From: a virus
Reading direction: 5' to 3' (one strand)
Virus record (IMG/VR): IMGVR_UViG_3300017991_000002
Coordinates: 1 to 64,000 of that record
Length of the DNA stretch: 64,000 nt
The notes beneath the pieces are model-generated. The model saw only the letters and a list, made by a program, of their open reading frames with translations, had not been told where the DNA came from and made no database searches. Of the stretch, positions 9,467 to 62,141 are shown piece after piece. Every line of letters begins with the position of its first letter. Position 1 is the first letter of the stretch. The translations under genes were made by a program, and so were the position numbers.

Positions 9467-11095
9467 TTACGACTCCTCCTGGCCGGCCAGCTCTTTCTTC
9501 TTTCTCTTCAGCAGCCGTTTCAATTTTACCTTGACGGGAATCCCCCTTGGCCCTCTTCCCTTACCAAACGCCTCTCCTCGGCCTTCTCCCTTGGAACGGA
9601 TATTTTTGCCGGGAGTCTTACAGGTAATCTCATCCCCCGAGACGACAAAGTCAGCACCGGATGGGACACCGATCGGTCCTTCTCCCTTCCCGAAGGCTTC
9701 CCCTCGACCTTTTCCCTTGGATCTGATCTTCTCACCGGGGGTCTTGCACTTGGCTTCTTCGATATCCTCATACCGCTGTCGCCTGGCCATGATCATGCGC
9801 TGAATGATTTGACTTTTATAATTCTCTCGTTCCCGGGGGGTGAATTCGCGTTTACTCCTCTTCTCCATAGACGAAACCATGTTGTTCGCCGTCTTCTCGT
9901 ACCGATCGCGTAATACTGCGGGGATCTGGTAGCCAAGGTCAGAGATCGCTACCCCTGGAGGACTCTGGGGCATCCCGTAGTCAATATTTCGCCCGTCGTC
10001 TCCATACTCATGAATCTGTCCGGATCCATACTTCGAAAGGTAATCCGCCATCTGGTAACCAACACCTTCCGGATTCTGTGTCAGGTCAGCAACCCTTGGA
10101 CGCTTCTGGGCGGAAACCTTTTTTCGGCGATGCATCTGGTAAGAGTGCATCACGGGTGTCGTCACGAAGCCTTCAGTATTGCTCATCCATTCTTTTTCTT
10201 CGTGATTGATATCATCAGCCACGAGGGATTTATTCTTGTGCGGCTTCTTCATGGGTTCATAATGGGTGAGAAGCTTCTTGGACACTTGGATGTTCTCGCG
10301 GTGACCGGCAGGCATAAGGTAACTGGCATGCTGCCCTTTTCGGGGAGATTGCTTCCTGTCTTCAACTTCATTGAGTTCATGTCGGGAATAATCCTGGTCA
10401 GTGGGCTGCGATTTCCCAGCTGCTTCACTGAGGTCGATATCCGACAACCTAGGGTACCCTGGTCCAGGAAGTACCCCTCCCCCTACCGTGAAAGTCTGAC
10501 CCCGGGGGTTGGTAAGTACTACATCATATCCCCTATAAGGTGGCATACCCCTGCATACCATCTCCATAATCCAATGTGATCCATCTGACCCATCAAGATC
10601 GAATGCAGAGACGAGACCATTAATTGGCTCGATATCATAGAAGTACCCACTCGCACCCCCCATAACCTGGGTTACCCCCTCCAACAAGGTGGTACTCTGT
10701 ATACCATGTTTATGGGGTACAGGTACCTGGAAAGTATACCCCCGGGTACCAAGATCTTCGACCGAGTGTAAAACTTTCCGGTGCGAGGACATCTTCCTGA
10801 CGACATCCTCCGCAAGAACTTTTCCTGCTATCTTTGGTGACGCTTCTTTGATCCGATTAATCTTGCTCCTCACTGCATGCTCCCTGAGGGAAGACTGGAT
10901 AACCTGAGCAGCAAGACCATAAGAGACCGACTTCCCCGTAAACTCCTCCAGGATCACCCTAGAGGCGGTATCCGAGAACTCCCCGCAGGCGTTTCCGTCT
11001 GATCCGAAGATACCATGGTGGAGAGTCGCCTCATAAATGAGATCGAAGGCGCTGTCTCGGTCAAAGAACTCGTAACTTCCACTATTGTTTATCAT
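9467..11095 (-). CDS. 542-residue protein with C-terminal basic repeats
   Basis: First gene of the leftward virion-like block. The N-terminal half contains a globular region (residues 100-230) ending with L-S-E-A (about 232). The C-terminal 90 residues carry two near-identical units beginning CKTPGEKIRSKGKGRGEAFG and CKTPGKNIRSKGEGRGEAFG, then a poly-basic tail. The DNA for residues roughly 115-220 (10430-10760) is dense in GGTACC and GTATAC sites, like the repeat array just upstream, so repeat-type sequence may extend into the gene. Function unknown. Confidence 0.7.
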   Translation of the reverse strand: MINNSGSYEFFDRDSAFDLIYEATLHHGIFGSDGNACGEFSDTASRVILEEFTGKSVSYGLAAQVIQSSLREHAVRSKINRIKEASPKIAGKVLAEDVVRKMSSHRKVLHSVEDLGTRGYTFQVPVPHKHGIQSTTLLEGVTQVMGGASGYFYDIEPINGLVSAFDLDGSDGSHWIMEMVCRGMPPYRGYDVVLTNPRGQTFTVGGGVLPGPGYPRLSDIDLSEAAGKSQPTDQDYSRHELNEVEDRKQSPRKGQHASYLMPAGHRENIQVSKKLLTHYEPMKKPHKNKSLVADDINHEEKEWMSNTEGFVTTPVMHSYQMHRRKKVSAQKRPRVADLTQNPEGVGYQMADYLSKYGSGQIHEYGDDGRNIDYGMPQSPPGVAISDLGYQIPAVLRDRYEKTANNMVSSMEKRSKREFTPRERENYKSQIIQRMIMARRQRYEDIEEAKCKTPGEKIRSKGKGRGEAFGKGEGPIGVPSGADFVVSGDEITCKTPGKNIRSKGEGRGEAFGKGRGPRGIPVKVKLKRLLKRKKKELAGQEES

Positions 11096-11179: not shown

Positions 11180-11660
11180 ATGTCCAACAAAGTACCCACC
11201 TCATACCCCCTTTTACGTACCTTGATACGGTACTTGTTAGTATACAAGTTCCAACTTCTTTGTATACTGATAGGGTACTTCCCCTATATCAAGTTACATC
11301 TTCTTGAATATCGCACAAGAATGAAACCACACAGCAGACGATCAATCCTTCCCCAATTCAACATGTCGTACCCTCACATAGGACATACCCCCTATCAGTA
11401 CCCTATAAAGTACCCATACAGATACCCTACTTGTTAGTATACAAGTTCCAACTTCTTGGTATACTGATGGGGTACTTCCCCTATATCAAACACCAACTCG
11501 TCATTTTTTGAGGAAGATCCAGCCAAGATGACTCAAAATTCAACAACATAGTATACAGTATGGGTACTTCCTAGCATACAAGTGCTGACTTCCTGGTATA
11601 CAGATAGGGTACTTGTTGGTATACTGATAGGGTACTTCCCTTATATCAAGTTACATAAAT
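11180..11660. repeat. GTATAC/GGTACTT repeat array (left)
   Basis: A gene-free stretch with at least four diverged direct copies of a unit about 50 nt long: TACTTGTTAGTATACAAGTT, CCAACTTCTTGGTATACTGA, then TAGGGTACTTCCCCTATATC. The best copies lie at 11229-11280 and 11428-11479, with weaker ones at 11561-11660. Each has two GTATAC palindromes about 25 nt apart. A nearly identical copy is at 53147-53199 in the same orientation. Could be iterons, partition sites or operators. Confidence 0.8.
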
Positions 11661-52679: not shown

Positions 52680-53140
52680 CTTTTCCTCCTTTGAAAAAAT
52701 TGCGGTATCATTACTAATGACCCCAATTGTGATGAAGCTATTTCTTCAGTACATATTGTGGTCATATTAATGTGACAGAAATCGGGCACTTACTTTGAAC
52801 CAATCACTCTGTTTTATTATAGTATTTACATCAGGAGTATTCAAGGTAATCTGTTTCAACAAAAGACTCTTTTTCTTTTGTTGAGCTGCCTCCTAAGTGG
52901 TCTTAAAAACGTGATGGCGCTATTACTTATAGCGTCGCAGAGGTAAAATCTGTGGATAACTCCAGAAACCTCTTCAGTCATATGAAGTTAACACGACTTT
53001 AGTTTCATTAAATAAACGTAAAAAAATAAAAAATAATCAAAAATAACGTAAAAACCCCCTTTTTCGCCTTTAAACGGTTATTTTTTATTTTTTCGGGGGG
53101 TATTTATTATTTATAGGGTATTTTCAACTTGTTGGGTATC
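52680..53140. other. Origin-like divergent region
   Basis: No gene. It contains TGTGGATAA (52951-52959; the reverse complement TTATCCACA is a consensus DnaA box), a very AT-rich run near 53008-53060 with repeated A-tracts, and T-rich tracts near 53080-53125. Genes point away on both sides. Consistent with a replication origin. Confidence 0.45.
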
Positions 53141-53570
53141 TGTATAGGTACTTGTTAGTATACAAGTTCCAACTTCTTGGTATACCGATGGGGTACTTGT
53201 CGGATCCCAATGCCTCTAAATCTTGGGTCCTCAGATTCGACTTGACCCCTATCAAGTTCCGACTTTAGGGTAACCTGATATGGTACTTGTATGGTATCTG
53301 TATAGGTACTTCCCCGGGTAGTGATATGGTACTTGTATGGGGGAGGTGTAGGTACTTGTCGGTACTTCGGTGACATGTATGGTTTTTCGGGTCAAAAAGT
53401 CATCAAGTTCCGACTTTATGGCATGGGCAGGTATGGGCAGGTGTGGGCAGGTTTGGTACTGCCTAATGTGTATCAAGTATCAACAAGTTGACATTTGTAT
53501 GGGTACTTGTTGGTATACTGACTAGGTACTTGTCAGGTAGTTGATGGGGTACTTGTCTGGGAGGGTGTGA
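53141..53570. repeat. GTATAC/GGTACTT repeat array (right)
   Basis: The unit at 53147-53199 matches those at 11229 and 11428 nearly base for base and in the same orientation. Diverged relatives follow (for example GGTACTTGTTGGTATACTGA near 53503). The rest of 53571-53782 holds an 8- to 10-bp inverted repeat (GATTGCC...GGCAATC, 53631-53655) after a T-run, and the leader of the next gene. Confidence 0.75.
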
Positions 53571-53782
53571 TAACTTTATGGTCTCCGAATACCATAAAAG
53601 TGAAAAATCGAAAAAAGAAAAAATTTTTTTGATTGCCCCTGGAAAAGGCAATCAAATCGACCCAAAATCGGTAGAATGGGGGTGGGACTGAGATTAGATA
53701 GCTTTTTTATTATTCTTCGTGGTTTTTCGGATAAAGTTCTTTATGAAACTTCATTGTTTTTTGTGAACCTAAAGGAGGAAAA

Positions 53783-55359: not shown

Positions 55360-55878
55360 ATGAGTGGATGGGTTCCTTTAATTTTAACGGTTTCATTGGT
55401 GATTTTTCTGTTCATTATTGTTAGCATCGCTACCTCTTATTCCATCAGAAGGCATGAGTCTGTTCAGAAAGAGGTTATTCGAGCAATAAGGGCCAGAGAA
55501 AAGTATATCGATATCCTCGATCATGTATATGGCCAGGAAGAGTTTGATGACGAGGAAGTCATTTATCTTCTTCCCTGTAAGAGCAGAAACGGTAGTAATG
55601 GGTTTTTTGTGCGGGCAGTTGAGGGGAAGAGCCGTGATAAGGTAAATTATTTTCTTGGCCTCGGTAAGGAACATTGGATACCAATAAGCCGGGGTCTTTA
55701 TGAGGAGTTTAGGAGAGAGTCGGCAAAAAACTTTTACCTCTTCATTGATGGAAGGATGGACAGCCGTGAAAAAGAAATGCAAGATCTGTGGGAAAATGGT
55801 TCCACGAAACTACCTGGTGAGTCACCAGAGTTATCACAAGAAGAAACGTCAGACGGATCCACGCAGCAAGAAATCTAA
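55360..55878 (+). CDS. Membrane-anchored protein
   Basis: 172 residues: N-terminal TM LILTVSLVIFLFIIVSIAT, then a helical-beta cytoplasmic or periplasmic part. The C-terminus overlaps 55766-55894 by 113 nt. Confidence 0.65.
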   Translation: MSGWVPLILTVSLVIFLFIIVSIATSYSIRRHESVQKEVIRAIRAREKYIDILDHVYGQEEFDDEEVIYLLPCKSRNGSNGFFVRAVEGKSRDKVNYFLGLGKEHWIPISRGLYEEFRRESAKNFYLFIDGRMDSREKEMQDLWENGSTKLPGESPELSQEETSDGSTQQEI

Positions 55879-55894
55879 CCCCAAGTCATCTTGA
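55766..55894 (+). CDS. Small zinc finger protein
   Basis: 42 residues from GTG 55766 (AAGGATGG upstream): KKKCKICGKMVPRNYLVSHQ...H, a C2H2-like finger followed by a basic tail. Out of frame with the overlapped gene. Confidence 0.55.
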   Translation: MKKKCKICGKMVPRNYLVSHQSYHKKKRQTDPRSKKSNPKSS

Positions 55895-56560
55895 TCACGA
55901 TTACTGGGAGTGCCTCTGACGAGGCCCCAGGGTCGGGGGGGAGATGACACTAACCCAAGACTGGCTATGCTGTAGAGTGCATCAGTTATGCTTCTGCGGA
56001 TCGGCCAGTCTGAAGGGCTACGCTGCTAAAGAGCCACGGGGTATGATTTGATTCCATCGGTCTTGTAAGAAGACTTAATGTCCAAGCTGTGGTGCTGATG
56101 TTCCACACCGGGTGACGGTGTCTCTAAGGACGATGATTGAGGGTCATATCCGACAAAGCAGTGAAGGGAGGTGTAGTATGCGTTCGGGCCTCGGCTGTCG
56201 GGGGTTGGCGATGGGAACAAGACCCAGACAGGTGGTAGTCGTCAGGTGAGCGGGACTTTTAGCCGATCCTGATCATTGCCCATTTGCTCATGACCAGGGA
56301 TCTTGTAATCCAGAACCAACAAAAACTGCCGGTCGAGATGAAAATAGGTTTGAAAACGATCTGGGTGCCAGTTCGAGGAGCCAGCTTAGACAGAAGGCCT
56401 CCGAACAAAAGACACGCGTATGCTAATCTTTTCCAGAGATAAGTGTATCCCGCTTGAGCATGCCGACATTTCGAACCGCCAAATCCGGACTATCTTTTTT
56501 GAGAATTTCTGATCCACACCAGCCCCGGGCACCATGCCCGGGGCCCTACGCGAAGGAAGA
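55895..56560 (+). ncRNA. Large structured RNA candidate (~650 nt)
   Basis: A GC-rich gene-free region with strong local helices: CTGGG/GCCTC-TGAC-GAGGC/CCCAG (55904-55930), AGACTGGC...GCCAGTCT (55958-56011), GTCTT...AAGAC near 56063, ACACC...GGTGT near 56105, GATCCTG...CAGGGATC (56265-56302) and a 9-bp hairpin GCCCCGGGC...GCCCGGGGC (56522-56544) at its end. No long reading frame on the plus strand. Length, GC jump and phage context recall ROOL/GOLLD-type RNAs, but sequence identity was not checked. Confidence 0.6.
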
Positions 56561-56570
56561 GAGGTATAGA

Positions 56571-56798
56571 ATGGCTCATACATACTGCAAGGTATGCGCA
56601 CTGCCTTACGATTCACTTATTGGCAGAGACTGTCCCCATTGTCGAGAGCGTACCCAAAGAAGACTTGACAAAGAGGATGAAGACCAAGCCTGGATTGAAG
56701 ATAGTTTAAACCTTCTACATCAAAAACTTGATCGGCTGCTGTCACTTGTAGATAAGGACGCAGGGCCAATCAAGAGGAAGGGGGAATTGTACTTATAA
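56571..56798 (+). CDS. Zinc-ribbon protein
   Basis: 75 residues from ATG 56571 (GAAGGAAGAGAGG). YCKVCALPYDSLIGRDCPHC is a C-x2-C...C-x2-C ribbon, then a helix and a basic tail. A 4-nt overlap (TAATG) with a possible next frame. Confidence 0.7.
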   Translation: MAHTYCKVCALPYDSLIGRDCPHCRERTQRRLDKEDEDQAWIEDSLNLLHQKLDRLLSLVDKDAGPIKRKGELYL

Positions 56799-56926
56799 TG
56801 AACTCACACTTTTGGTGGACCATACGAAGGTGGTGGCACCTTCCGCACATGATGGCAATGACTTGTCGACCAGAGCACCCCAGGAAGTATTTATCATGCT
56901 CCTTATTGTATTTGCCCTGTTTGTAA
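56798..56926 (+). CDS. Possible 42-residue peptide
   Basis: ATG overlaps the upstream stop; Trp/Met-rich start MNSHFWWTIRRWWHLPHMMA. It overlaps the likely start of 56896-57180, so only one may be used. Confidence 0.35.
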   Translation: MNSHFWWTIRRWWHLPHMMAMTCRPEHPRKYLSCSLLYLPCL

Positions 56927-58829: not shown

Positions 58830-59789
58830 TTGCCGGAAAACAAAGCGGAAATAAAGGATACATATCAACGATTCTTCGATTACATGAATGCCGGATATCC
58901 TCTTATCTGGATCCAGACACAGGAGGATGCCCGCGTCATTTCTGAAATATCCCGACATGATAAGGATGAGACGCAGTGGTATGTCTGGGATATTGCCGCC
59001 GGCTTTCGTCAGCTAATCGAGAATGCTCAGGCAGAGGAGATGGAAGACCCAACTGGTCCGATTAAGAAGATTGAATCCCTTCCTGATCGGTCGGTAGTGT
59101 TCTTAAAGGACTTTCATCTTTTCATCACCAACCCGACCGTCTTTCGAATGATGAAGAACCTGATCCCTGTATTGGAGACAACGGAGAAGCATTTAGTGGT
59201 TATTTCCCCCACCGACAAAATGCCGATAGAGATCGAGACGGACTTCGTAATATGGGATTTTCCACTTCCCGATAGGGACGAGCTCGTAAATGAGGCAAAG
59301 AAACTGGCGGAGGATAACGACCTCACAAACATCAATGAGGAGTATGCTGCCTCTGCCGCCGGAATGGGATTAAATCCGGCCAGGAACGCTTTCTCCTTGT
59401 CCTTGGTTACCAGGGGAGGTAAGCTCGATCGTGAGCTTATTGAGGAGCAGAAGAAGGACAACATTCGAAGAGTGGAAGGACTCGAGTGGTTTCCGGTCGT
59501 TGAGGAGAAGGAAGTCGGGGGACTCGACAATATGAAAGATTACTTCAAATCACGTTGTCGAGGATTTACCGATCCGAAGCTTCCACTGCCGAAGGGAGTT
59601 CTGCTTGTTGGTCTTCCCGGCGCCGGCAAGTCGTTGTCTGCCAAGATGGCGGCACATATTTTCCAGACACCGCTCATCAGGTTCGATCTTGGGTCTCTGA
59701 AGGGATCCCTGGTTGGTGAGACGGAGAGCAAGACTCGTAAGGCACTGCAAGTGATCGATGCAAACGCACCGTTGGTGGTGTGGGTGGAT
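58830..59789 (+). CDS. Ycf46-type AAA+ ATPase, exon 1
   Basis: TTG start behind CACAGGAGGTG. The N-domain (YQRFFDYMNAGYPLIWIQTQ) and AAA start (GLPGAGKS Walker A, about residue 267) are the Ycf46 pattern. The exon ends at codon 320 in VVWVD of Walker B. Joined to 60815-61375 it gives 506 residues. Spliced reading gives VVWVDEIEKALGG. Ycf46-like proteins are AAA+ ATPases in plastids, cyanobacteria and phages. Loading of the next two genes' products is a guess. Confidence 0.85.
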
Positions 59790-60814
59790 GAAAAGTCGAT
59801 CTTGTCCACCTTAAATCCCGTGAACTGCTGGGACACTGAAACAGGTAGTGCTGTCAGCTATCAGCAGCCAAGCCTTGGGAGGAATTCCTTGGAAGGTTCA
59901 GAGGTCAGAGCATACCGTCCAGAACGGACGATGAAGCTCGTAGGGTCCAAGAGGACTCGAAGCGCGGGACAGATAGTTGACTTTTTTGATTAACCTGCTA
60001 TAGTATTAGAAAAGGTTCTTCTAATATTGACTAAAGCAGGAGGTTTTGAAATGTGGTCCAAGAAGTATGATGAATGTGTAAAATGTGGTTCCTCTGAGAG
60101 AAAGCATGTAGGCAGGGGTCTATGTTCCCTTTGTTACTCAAGAGACTGGGGAAATAAAAATGCTGACAAGCTTCGGAAACAACGGCATGAATGGTACATA
60201 AGAAGTGGGGGGAAGAATAGAGCCAGAATATTAAGGGAAGAGCGTTATTATGCAGGTAAAAGGAATCACATTCTGGAGCGAGATGGTTATAAGTGCGTCA
60301 AGTGTGGAGAAGATAGGGTAAGTCAATTGATTGTGCATCATGGAGACGGGAGTGGCAGGGGATCTAAAGAGCACAATAATGAAGACGATAATCTTGTAAC
60401 TTGGTGCCGAAGTTGCCATGCGAGACATCATAGTCCTCATAGAGGTAGGATATACAAGCCAGCTGGGTGGTCAGCTTGTTATTCAGCATGTATTGAATGC
60501 GGAACTACGGAGAGGCCACACGGTAGTAAAGGTTTGTGTAAGACCTGCTATGCCCGTAAGCTAAGAGCTGGTAAGGGTTATATGTGGACAGGATGGTCTT
60601 TTCATTATGAACACTGTATAGACTGTGGGACCACAGAAGTGAAACATCATTCGAAGGGTCTATGCACACGTTGCTATGATAAAAAGCGGCGTGAGGAGGC
60701 CAGAATGAAACGTCAACTATCTGATGATATGATCCGAACTCATGCGAAAGTATGAGAGGTTAATCGGACTCGGATTGACCGTAACATATAAATCCTTGTA
60801 TTTAAAGGGTTTTG
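59790..60814 (+). other. Group I self-splicing intron
   Basis: 1025 nt. The 5' exon ends in U and the intron in G. The last exon bases GGUGGAU (59783-59789) pair with intron GUCCACC (59804-59810) with a U.G at the splice site (P1); the 3' exon GAGATC pairs with intron GATCTT (59798-59803) as P10. Core-like strands TGAACTGCTGGGA, CAGCAGCCAAGC and GTTCAGAGGTCAGAGC are present upstream of the HNH gene, as in phage group I introns. The splice restores the Walker B. Confidence 0.9.
60051..60755 (+). CDS. HNH homing endonuclease in the intron
   Basis: 234 residues from ATG 60051 (AGCAGGAGGTTTTGAA). HNH core NHILERDGYKCVKC, LIVHHGDGSG, DNLVTWCRSCHARHH. Three zinc-finger-like repeats of the form C-x2-CG(S/T)(S/T)E...GLC-x2-CY flank it and probably read DNA. 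Typical intron-borne nuclease that cuts intronless alleles. Confidence 0.85.
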   Translation: MWSKKYDECVKCGSSERKHVGRGLCSLCYSRDWGNKNADKLRKQRHEWYIRSGGKNRARILREERYYAGKRNHILERDGYKCVKCGEDRVSQLIVHHGDGSGRGSKEHNNEDDNLVTWCRSCHARHHSPHRGRIYKPAGWSACYSACIECGTTERPHGSKGLCKTCYARKLRAGKGYMWTGWSFHYEHCIDCGTTEVKHHSKGLCTRCYDKKRREEARMKRQLSDDMIRTHAKV

Positions 60815-61375
60815 GAGATCGAAAAAGCATTGGGAGGAGTGATGTCTTCGTCCAGATCAGACGCTGGAACAACCAGTAATATGTTCTCGGCACTGCTGAC
60901 GTGGATGCAGGAGTCTACGAAACCGCACTTCATCGTGGCAACGTGCAATGAAATTAGTGAATTGCTCGAGATCTCACAAGGTGCCCTCCTCCGTCGGTTT
61001 GATGATATCTTCTTCGTCGATCTTCCCACCCAGAAAGAGCGGGAAGAGATTATCAAGATTATGAACGAGCGGTATGGGACGAAGATACCGGTTAAGATGG
61101 CAAACGATATGCCGAATTGGACAGGTGCCGAAATAGAGCGCTTTGCCAGGGACTTGCTCTTCTGCAATGCCAAGACAAAGGCTGAGATGGATGAGGTCAA
61201 GGACGGAATTCGGTTGATTTACAACCAAAACCAGAATATAATTGAAACACTAAGACGGTGGGCGAAGGTTAACGCTCGCCGAGCGAATGCGTATCTGCCA
61301 GAGGAAGATGCCAGCGCTTCTGATAAGAAGTCGAAACGATCCTTGAGGTATCCCTCACAAACAACCAATGTGTAA
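60815..61375 (+). CDS. Ycf46-type AAA+ ATPase, exon 2
   Basis: 186 residues. Restores EIEKALGG of Walker B, then sensor 1 IVATCNEISEL and arginine-finger region LLRRFDDIFFVDLP, typical for the family. C-terminal lid and a helical end with a Lys/Ser tail. The frame matches exon 1 exactly. Confidence 0.85.
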   Translation, partial: EIEKALGGVMSSSRSDAGTTSNMFSALLTWMQESTKPHFIVATCNEISELLEISQGALLRRFDDIFFVDLPTQKEREEIIKIMNERYGTKIPVKMANDMPNWTGAEIERFARDLLFCNAKTKAEMDEVKDGIRLIYNQNQNIIETLRRWAKVNARRANAYLPEEDASASDKKSKRSLRYPSQTTNV

Positions 61376-61391: not shown

Positions 61392-61754
61392 ATGAGTCAT
61401 ACATCAGATATCAATCTGAAAATAAATTCTATTGAGGCTCTCCGCAGAGTTTGCGACAAGCTCGGTTGGGAGATGAACGAGAATGGTTCTGCTACTTTCT
61501 ATGATGGAAAGAAACGGGACGGTATCACCGTCAAGCTTCCGGGCTGGAGGTATGCCGTCGTTATCAATCGTGAGGAGGGGAAGGTCCTCTTCGACAACTA
61601 CAATGGTAGTTGGGGGAACATTAAACATCTGAATAAGTTAAAGGCACACTACGCGATCGAGTATGGAAAGATCCAAGCTCGAAGGATGGGATACACAACC
61701 GTGTATCAGGAAAACAATGAGGGCGAACTTGTCCTCACGGTTAACGTAGAATAG
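61392..61754 (+). CDS. DUF1257 (Ycf35-like) protein
   Basis: 120 residues. MSHTSDINLKINSIEALRRV, CDKLGWEMNENG, YAVVINREEGKVLFDNYNGS, LNKLKAHYAIEYGKIQARRM and GYTTVYQENNEGELVLTVNV match the DUF1257/Ycf35 layout. Partner of Ycf46 in this cassette; function unknown. Confidence 0.8.
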   Translation: MSHTSDINLKINSIEALRRVCDKLGWEMNENGSATFYDGKKRDGITVKLPGWRYAVVINREEGKVLFDNYNGSWGNIKHLNKLKAHYAIEYGKIQARRMGYTTVYQENNEGELVLTVNVE

Positions 61755-61765
61755 AGAGGTGTACG

Positions 61766-61960
61766 ATGGGAAAAAAGATCATTATCTCTGCCAACGAAAA
61801 CACCGGTGATATCAATGTGACAACAGAGGGATTTAAAGGGGCCCAATGTCTTAAGGCCTCGAAATTCCTCGAGGAGGGTCTTGGTGGCGGTAAGATGACA
61901 AAGACCGCTGAATTTTACGAGGCCGAAAAGTTCGATGAGCATGTCCAGCTCAATACCTAA
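61766..61960 (+). CDS. DUF2997 protein
   Basis: 64 residues: KKIIISANENTGDINVTTEG, FKGAQCLKASKFLEEGLGG, the compact DUF2997 fold often beside DUF1257 and Ycf46. The lone cysteine in GAQCLKA is conserved in this family by my recollection. Confidence 0.75.
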   Translation: MGKKIIISANENTGDINVTTEGFKGAQCLKASKFLEEGLGGGKMTKTAEFYEAEKFDEHVQLNT

Positions 61961-62141
61961 GAATAAACTCATAATATCTGTCGGCCTGTGGGATCCTGAC
62001 CGTGTCAGGATCCGCACCGACGGGTGCGTTGACCCGGAAACGATCCTTGCGATCTGCCCTGAGGACGAGCAATTCAAGAAATGGGTAAACAAGAATCGTC
62101 CGGAGGAAGGTATGTTCTTTAGTACCCACCTATGTGGTTAA
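61935..62141 (+). CDS. Hypothetical protein
   Basis: Up to 68 residues starting within the end of the previous gene; KLIISVGLWDPDRVRIRTDG, then CVDPETILAIC, possibly another small beta-alpha partner of the cassette. No strong ribosome site. Confidence 0.5.
   Translation: MSMSSSIPKNKLIISVGLWDPDRVRIRTDGCVDPETILAICPEDEQFKKWVNKNRPEEGMFFSTHLCG

Follow-up and report, generated by a model that had tools for sequence, protein, structure and literature searches.

A candidate orphan large structured RNA in a gene-free stretch of a divergent myophage

A gene-free stretch in the genome of an uncultivated phage was found to lack coding capacity and to carry a significant fold, as would be expected of a large structured phage noncoding RNA. 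The reading that we favor, and to which we give about an even chance, is that the stretch specifies an orphan large structured RNA (~660 nt, 55885-56545, + strand), which would be cut from a rightward transcript and act in trans. Positions refer to the window, the 64-kb stretch of DNA that was analyzed, which is the first part of a virus record of 205,367 bases (205 kb). The strength of the fold, the strand bias of the P2 and P3 elements, the P4 arms that surpass their controls, the lack of coding signal, and the shift in G+C content all count in favor of an RNA, as do the hairpins that persist across folding contexts, the long gene-free gap, and the precedent of phage ICP1. Counted against an RNA are the lack of any homologue found, the dependence of P3 and P4 on the flanks, the single outstanding tile, and the lack of a convincing promoter or terminator.

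Genomic setting and coding potential

The gene content of the record is that of a divergent, uncultivated myophage, and includes a T4-gp23-like capsid protein, a head maturation protease, a family A DNA polymerase, a DnaB-like helicase, and a baseplate wedge protein. The closest relative found for the capsid protein (70% identity) is encoded on a 20.5-kb IMG/VR contig, and the best identity in the phage collection is about 35%. The whole 205-kb record was found to contain no tRNA genes. Genes run mostly leftward up to ~52.7 kb and rightward from 53.8 kb; the noncoding stretch sits 2.1 kb inside the rightward block, where its neighbors are small genes without known relatives. The stretch and its immediate surroundings are laid out as follows.

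55360-55878, +: upstream gene, 172 aa, with a putative N-terminal membrane helix (by eye)
55766-55894, +: C2H2-like ORF, 42 aa, GTG start, overlapping; weak zf-C2H2 match below the cut-off
55895-56570, +: whole noncoding stretch (676 bases), without coding signal; its structured part is taken as 55885-56545 (661 nt)
56571-56798, +: downstream gene, 75 aa, a cysteine-rich zinc ribbon (Cys_rich_CPXG, 22.8 bits, below the cut-off)

Both genes that flank the stretch are complete, and the start of the zinc-ribbon gene at 56571 is preceded by a good Shine-Dalgarno sequence. Across the stretch, the best codon log-odds of any frame were 0.01-0.09, always in frames that contain stops, compared to 0.12-0.22 for most neighboring genes and 0.04-0.06 for a few small ones. 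The longest stop-free run, of 76 codons, was reached by 93% of shuffles, and none of the four ORF pieces tested against PHROG gave a match. On these grounds, a hidden protein gene was rejected. The initial annotation had described a region with no gene and with a sharp boundary, and this description was borne out by the gene ends and the G+C step as well as by the codon statistics and stop counts; a conserved coding frame, which it had named as one finding that would speak against an RNA, was looked for, and no frame carried a coding signal.

The G+C content of the stretch is 0.525, compared to 0.456 for the window, and rises sharply at the left border (about 55.9 kb) from about 0.40-0.47 to 0.57. 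The stretch is present in a single copy, and neither direct repeats nor long perfect inverted repeats were found within it; no convincing promoter or terminator of its own, including a U-tract terminator, was found nearby. In this record, where genes are densely packed, it is among the longest gene-free gaps, and the remaining long gaps within the window are G+C-poor or repeat-bearing. A gap of 1438 nt (record 184719-186156), which emerged from a crude census of gene gaps, is probably an artefact, with a leftward gene cut at the boundary of a sequence piece at 184000. Two gene-free intervals, 11180-11650 and 53100-53600, have in common the iteron-like repeats GTACTTGTTAGTATAC (at most 2 mismatches), which are absent elsewhere in the record at up to 2 mismatches. 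The second of these intervals forms the junction between the leftward and rightward gene blocks, and is a candidate origin or control region.

Predicted structure of the stretch

The sense strand of 55885-56545 was predicted to fold with an energy of -250.1 kcal/mol, compared to a mean of -222.9 kcal/mol for 60 dinucleotide-preserving shuffles (z -3.88), whereas the minus strand showed an ordinary fold (z -1.05). Control windows of the same length (n = 72) had a mean z of -0.83 (sd 1.68), and three of the 72 fell below -3.88, namely the window at 61401 on both strands and that at 10201 on the minus strand. The earlier observation of a structured, G+C-rich, gene-free region of ~650 nt was thereby confirmed. 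In the predicted layout, two hairpins at the 5' end are followed by a long arm, then by a large domain with long-range pairing, and finally by a G+C-rich 3' hairpin; the elements, from 5' to 3', are listed below.

55885-55948, +: P1, 64-nt hairpin of 8+10+5 bp, loop UGAC; pair probabilities 0.95-1.0, z -3.51
55954-56017, +: P2, 64-nt hairpin of 3+9+12 bp, loop CAGUU; pair probabilities 0.86-0.99, z -5.11
56018-56166, +: P3, 149-nt arm of stacked helices; probability 0.78-0.96 in isolation, lost with long flanks
56168-56472, +: P4, 305-nt domain with successive long-range closing helices; probability 0.55-0.70
56229-56286, +: P5, hairpin within P4; mean pair probability 0.94, stable with longer flanks
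56303-56359, +: A-rich stretch within P4, predicted to be mostly unpaired; low pairing probabilities
56419-56447, +: P6, hairpin on the 3' side of P4; mean pair probability 0.90
56522-56544, +: 3' hairpin GCCCCGGGCA-CCA-TGCCCGGGGC, perfect 10 bp with 9 G+C pairs; z -4.75

The P1 and P2 hairpins, which make the 5' end the firmest part of the prediction, are stable with longer flanks, and the 5' arm of P1 overlaps the final codons of the small C2H2-like ORF. The P2 duplex was reached by none of 1000 shuffles, and its purine/pyrimidine pattern is unique within the window. On the minus strand, the score of P2 weakens from -5.11 to -2.28 and that of P3 from -2.17 to -0.38; greater stability on the + strand is the pattern expected for RNA rather than DNA, whereas P1 and the 3' hairpin are roughly equally stable on both strands. 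The 3' hairpin has no T tract downstream and lies 26 nt upstream of the next start codon. Among the five perfect stems in the record with at least 9 bp and at least 6 G+C pairs, it is the richest in G+C.

The long-range pairing of P4 was compared with two kinds of controls. Its 47-nt arms (56182-56228 with 56360-56406), which lie 131 nt apart, pair with -49.0 kcal/mol, compared to -29.2 +- 4.3 kcal/mol for shuffles, none of which (0/1000) was as stable. In a grid search that controls for the choice of arms, P4 reached -46.8 kcal/mol, compared to -32.8 +- 3.8 kcal/mol for shuffles (0/60 as low), and the best value in 91 other windows was only -40.1 kcal/mol. The pairing probabilities of P3 and P4 drop once 120-330 nt of flanking sequence are added, whereas P1, P2, P5, P6, and the 3' hairpin are retained in the folding contexts tried. 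When uniform 200-nt tiles were scored, only the 5' tile of the region was outstanding (-3.31, rank 20 of 974). Given the context dependence of P3 and P4 and the single high tile, the fold as a whole is best treated as hypothetical, and P1, P2, P5, P6, and the 3' hairpin as its safer parts.

Known RNA families and possible relatives

The phage RNAs ROOL and GOLLD assemble into nanocages without protein; the ROOL cage is homo-oligomeric, and the RNA, which is very abundant, spans 574 positions in its model (RF03087) and 659 nt in env-120. A likeness to these RNAs had been proposed in the initial annotation, together with searches using the ROOL, GOLLD, and OLE models; these searches matched none of the three. 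In the whole 205-kb record, neither the ROOL covariance model RF03087 (gathering threshold 99.1 bits) nor the GOLLD model RF02032, including its conserved 3' region, gave a match at E<=10, and the OLE model gave none at E<=5 in 55600-56800. All 4227 Rfam families were also run on the region at E<=5, and returned only two matches, both meaningless, with none to riboswitch or leader families or to group I or group II introns. These negatives are not absolute, since no positive control gave a signal in the ROOL search (the phage K record likewise had no ROOL match) and a clear group I-type intron of this phage was missed by Rfam. Judged from these model searches, the candidate RNA is outside every family in Rfam.

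The proposed likeness therefore holds for size and phage setting but is not supported as membership, as neither the ROOL nor the GOLLD model matched at E<=10 and the record has no tRNA genes. The candidate resembles ROOL further in its multi-domain fold and, by look, in its A-rich unpaired stretch, which recalls the disordered inner stretch of ROOL. In phages and prophages, however, ROOL and GOLLD often have a tRNA island nearby (PMC12286853), whereas the candidate has none. Its likeness to GOLLD is that of a large phage RNA, but many GOLLD members exceed 800 nt, and neither their conserved 3' region, a model match at E<=10, nor a nearby tRNA was found for the candidate. OLE is likewise an ornate RNA of ~600 nt, but occurs chiefly in the chromosomes of Gram-positive Bacillota and gave no model match here.

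The closest published parallel is found in ICP1, a phage without tRNAs, in which a gap of about 1 kb without ORFs gives rise to the most abundant transcript, a noncoding RNA of ~800 nt; the authors of that study likened the RNA to GOLLD and ROOL by size only (PMC7567579). The ICP1 RNA differs in that its abundance has been demonstrated and in that it is located at the start of the lysis cluster. The stretch had no sequence match at E<=1 in the phage collection, which is expected to include ICP1. Kayvirus phage K also produces abundant long noncoding RNAs, which were likened to GOLLD and ROOL by location and abundance (PMC9241854). These too are large noncoding phage RNAs, but they adjoin tRNA genes and their abundant transcription has been shown (PMC9241854).

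Homologues of the stretch were sought by several routes. Neither blastn in distant mode against named phages and plasmids nor a search at the DNA level in 19 related records of IMG/VR revealed one. Covariance models of P1 and P2 (R1; run on 88 sources as well as 18 further loci and 47 records) and of P3 (R2; 47 records) matched only the query's own locus; models built from a single sequence can detect no more than fairly close relatives. Junction 17-mers gave only chance matches in IMG/VR and in the genomes of 84,980 species. One Massilia match (L125) was rejected, its alignment being confined to the surroundings of the anchoring 17-mer, at the ends of protein genes. As bait, the upstream 172-aa protein found no relative in phages or IMG/VR, while the downstream AAA ATPase reached 80 loci (best identity 44%, at L042). 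In these relatives, only one or two of the following genes accompany the AAA gene, and the small genes around the RNA are kept at none of the 80 loci. The accessory region in which the RNA lies changes fast, and IMG/VR contains hardly any close relatives of the phage; the missing homologues are therefore weak evidence either way.

Mode of action and alternative readings

If the stretch does specify a large RNA, it would be transcribed inside the rightward gene block that starts at ~53.8 kb. Since neither a promoter nor a U-tract terminator is conspicuous nearby, the RNA would be excised from a polycistronic transcript or protected inside it, and the end hairpins may keep it stable. It would then act in trans as an abundant folded molecule, possibly in a manner like that of ROOL, GOLLD, and the ICP1 noncoding RNA, to judge from size and setting. 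A bolder proposal, which we regard as doubtful, is that it is the first member seen of a new class of large ornate phage RNAs, not related to ROOL, GOLLD, or OLE by sequence, which would accumulate during infection and may form an RNA-only particle. If so, large ornate RNAs would have had several origins among phages, also in those that lack tRNA islands. The occurrence of such an RNA, in the size class of ROOL and GOLLD but not related to them, in a tRNA-free phage would argue for a general role in infection, independent of such islands. The inventory of large phage RNAs is limited by its dependence on existing Rfam families, and candidates from single genomes are thus where new classes would appear.

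Of the other readings, the two main ones are each unlikely. The stretch could lie between cistrons as a structured leader or a processing element that works only in cis, setting the stability or translation of the mRNA of the zinc-ribbon and AAA operon and never existing as a separate RNA. Such an element would be consistent with flanking genes on the same strand, with the absence of both a stand-alone promoter and a U-tract terminator, and with the G+C-rich hairpin just ahead of the next start codon, but 676 nt with several independent domains far exceed the usual need of cis elements, and no riboswitch or leader family was matched. Chance or decay, in which what is left of lost genes, or a recently inserted piece, folds strongly because of its G+C content and has no function, is improbable to us as well. 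The lack of conservation anywhere searched and the context-dependent inner helices would agree with it, as would the fact that a z of -3.9 is not unique, other stretches reaching -5 to -6.7. However, composition is already allowed for by the dinucleotide-preserving shuffles, 0/1000 of which matched the P2 or P4 duplexes; no protein remnant was detected by codon statistics or family searches, and phages seldom keep 0.7 kb of idle DNA.

We consider it very unlikely that the hairpins work as DNA, in a replication origin or a packaging or recombination site. The near-equal stability of P1 and the 3' hairpin on either strand would suit such an element, as would the junction of divergent gene blocks, with its iteron-like repeats, just 2.3-2.8 kb upstream; the strand bias of P2 and P3 and the lack of direct repeats or long perfect inverted repeats argue against it, and the repeat-bearing, A+T-rich junction at 52.7-53.7 kb is the better origin candidate. 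Least probable of all is a diverged self-splicing intron or similar ribozyme between the genes. This reading gains some plausibility from the presence in the phage of at least three group I-type introns, one of them missed by Rfam, but the stretch itself gave no group I or group II match at E<=5, and the core motifs common to the AAA-gene intron and contig L003 are absent from it at up to 3 mismatches. Because these motifs are missing and the neighboring genes are complete, so that no splicing is required, the stretch was rejected as an intron.

The AAA ATPase gene (58830-61375; ycf46-like by eye) is interrupted by a group I-type intron of ~1 kb that contains an HNH ORF (60027-60755) and has its core motifs in common with IMG/VR contig L003; in the AAA gene, the Rfam models matched nothing even at E<=5. 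In the capsid gene, one group I intron scores above the Rfam cut-off (64.2 bits), and another, which adjoins a 340-aa endonuclease-like ORF, stays below it (29.6 bits); the coordinates of the capsid-gene introns are L009:7885-8165 (-) and record 170228-170433 (-).

Among the background windows, the strongest fold on either strand belongs to 61401-62061, farther downstream (z of -6.7 on one strand and -5.8 on the other). This interval lies within small genes downstream of the AAA gene, and contains a perfect hairpin, GGATCCTGAC-CGT-GTCAGGATCC, at 61991-62013. After the AAA gene, 61392-61960 holds DUF1257-like and DUF2997-like ORFs (by eye), each of which several phages in IMG/VR retain close to their AAA gene.
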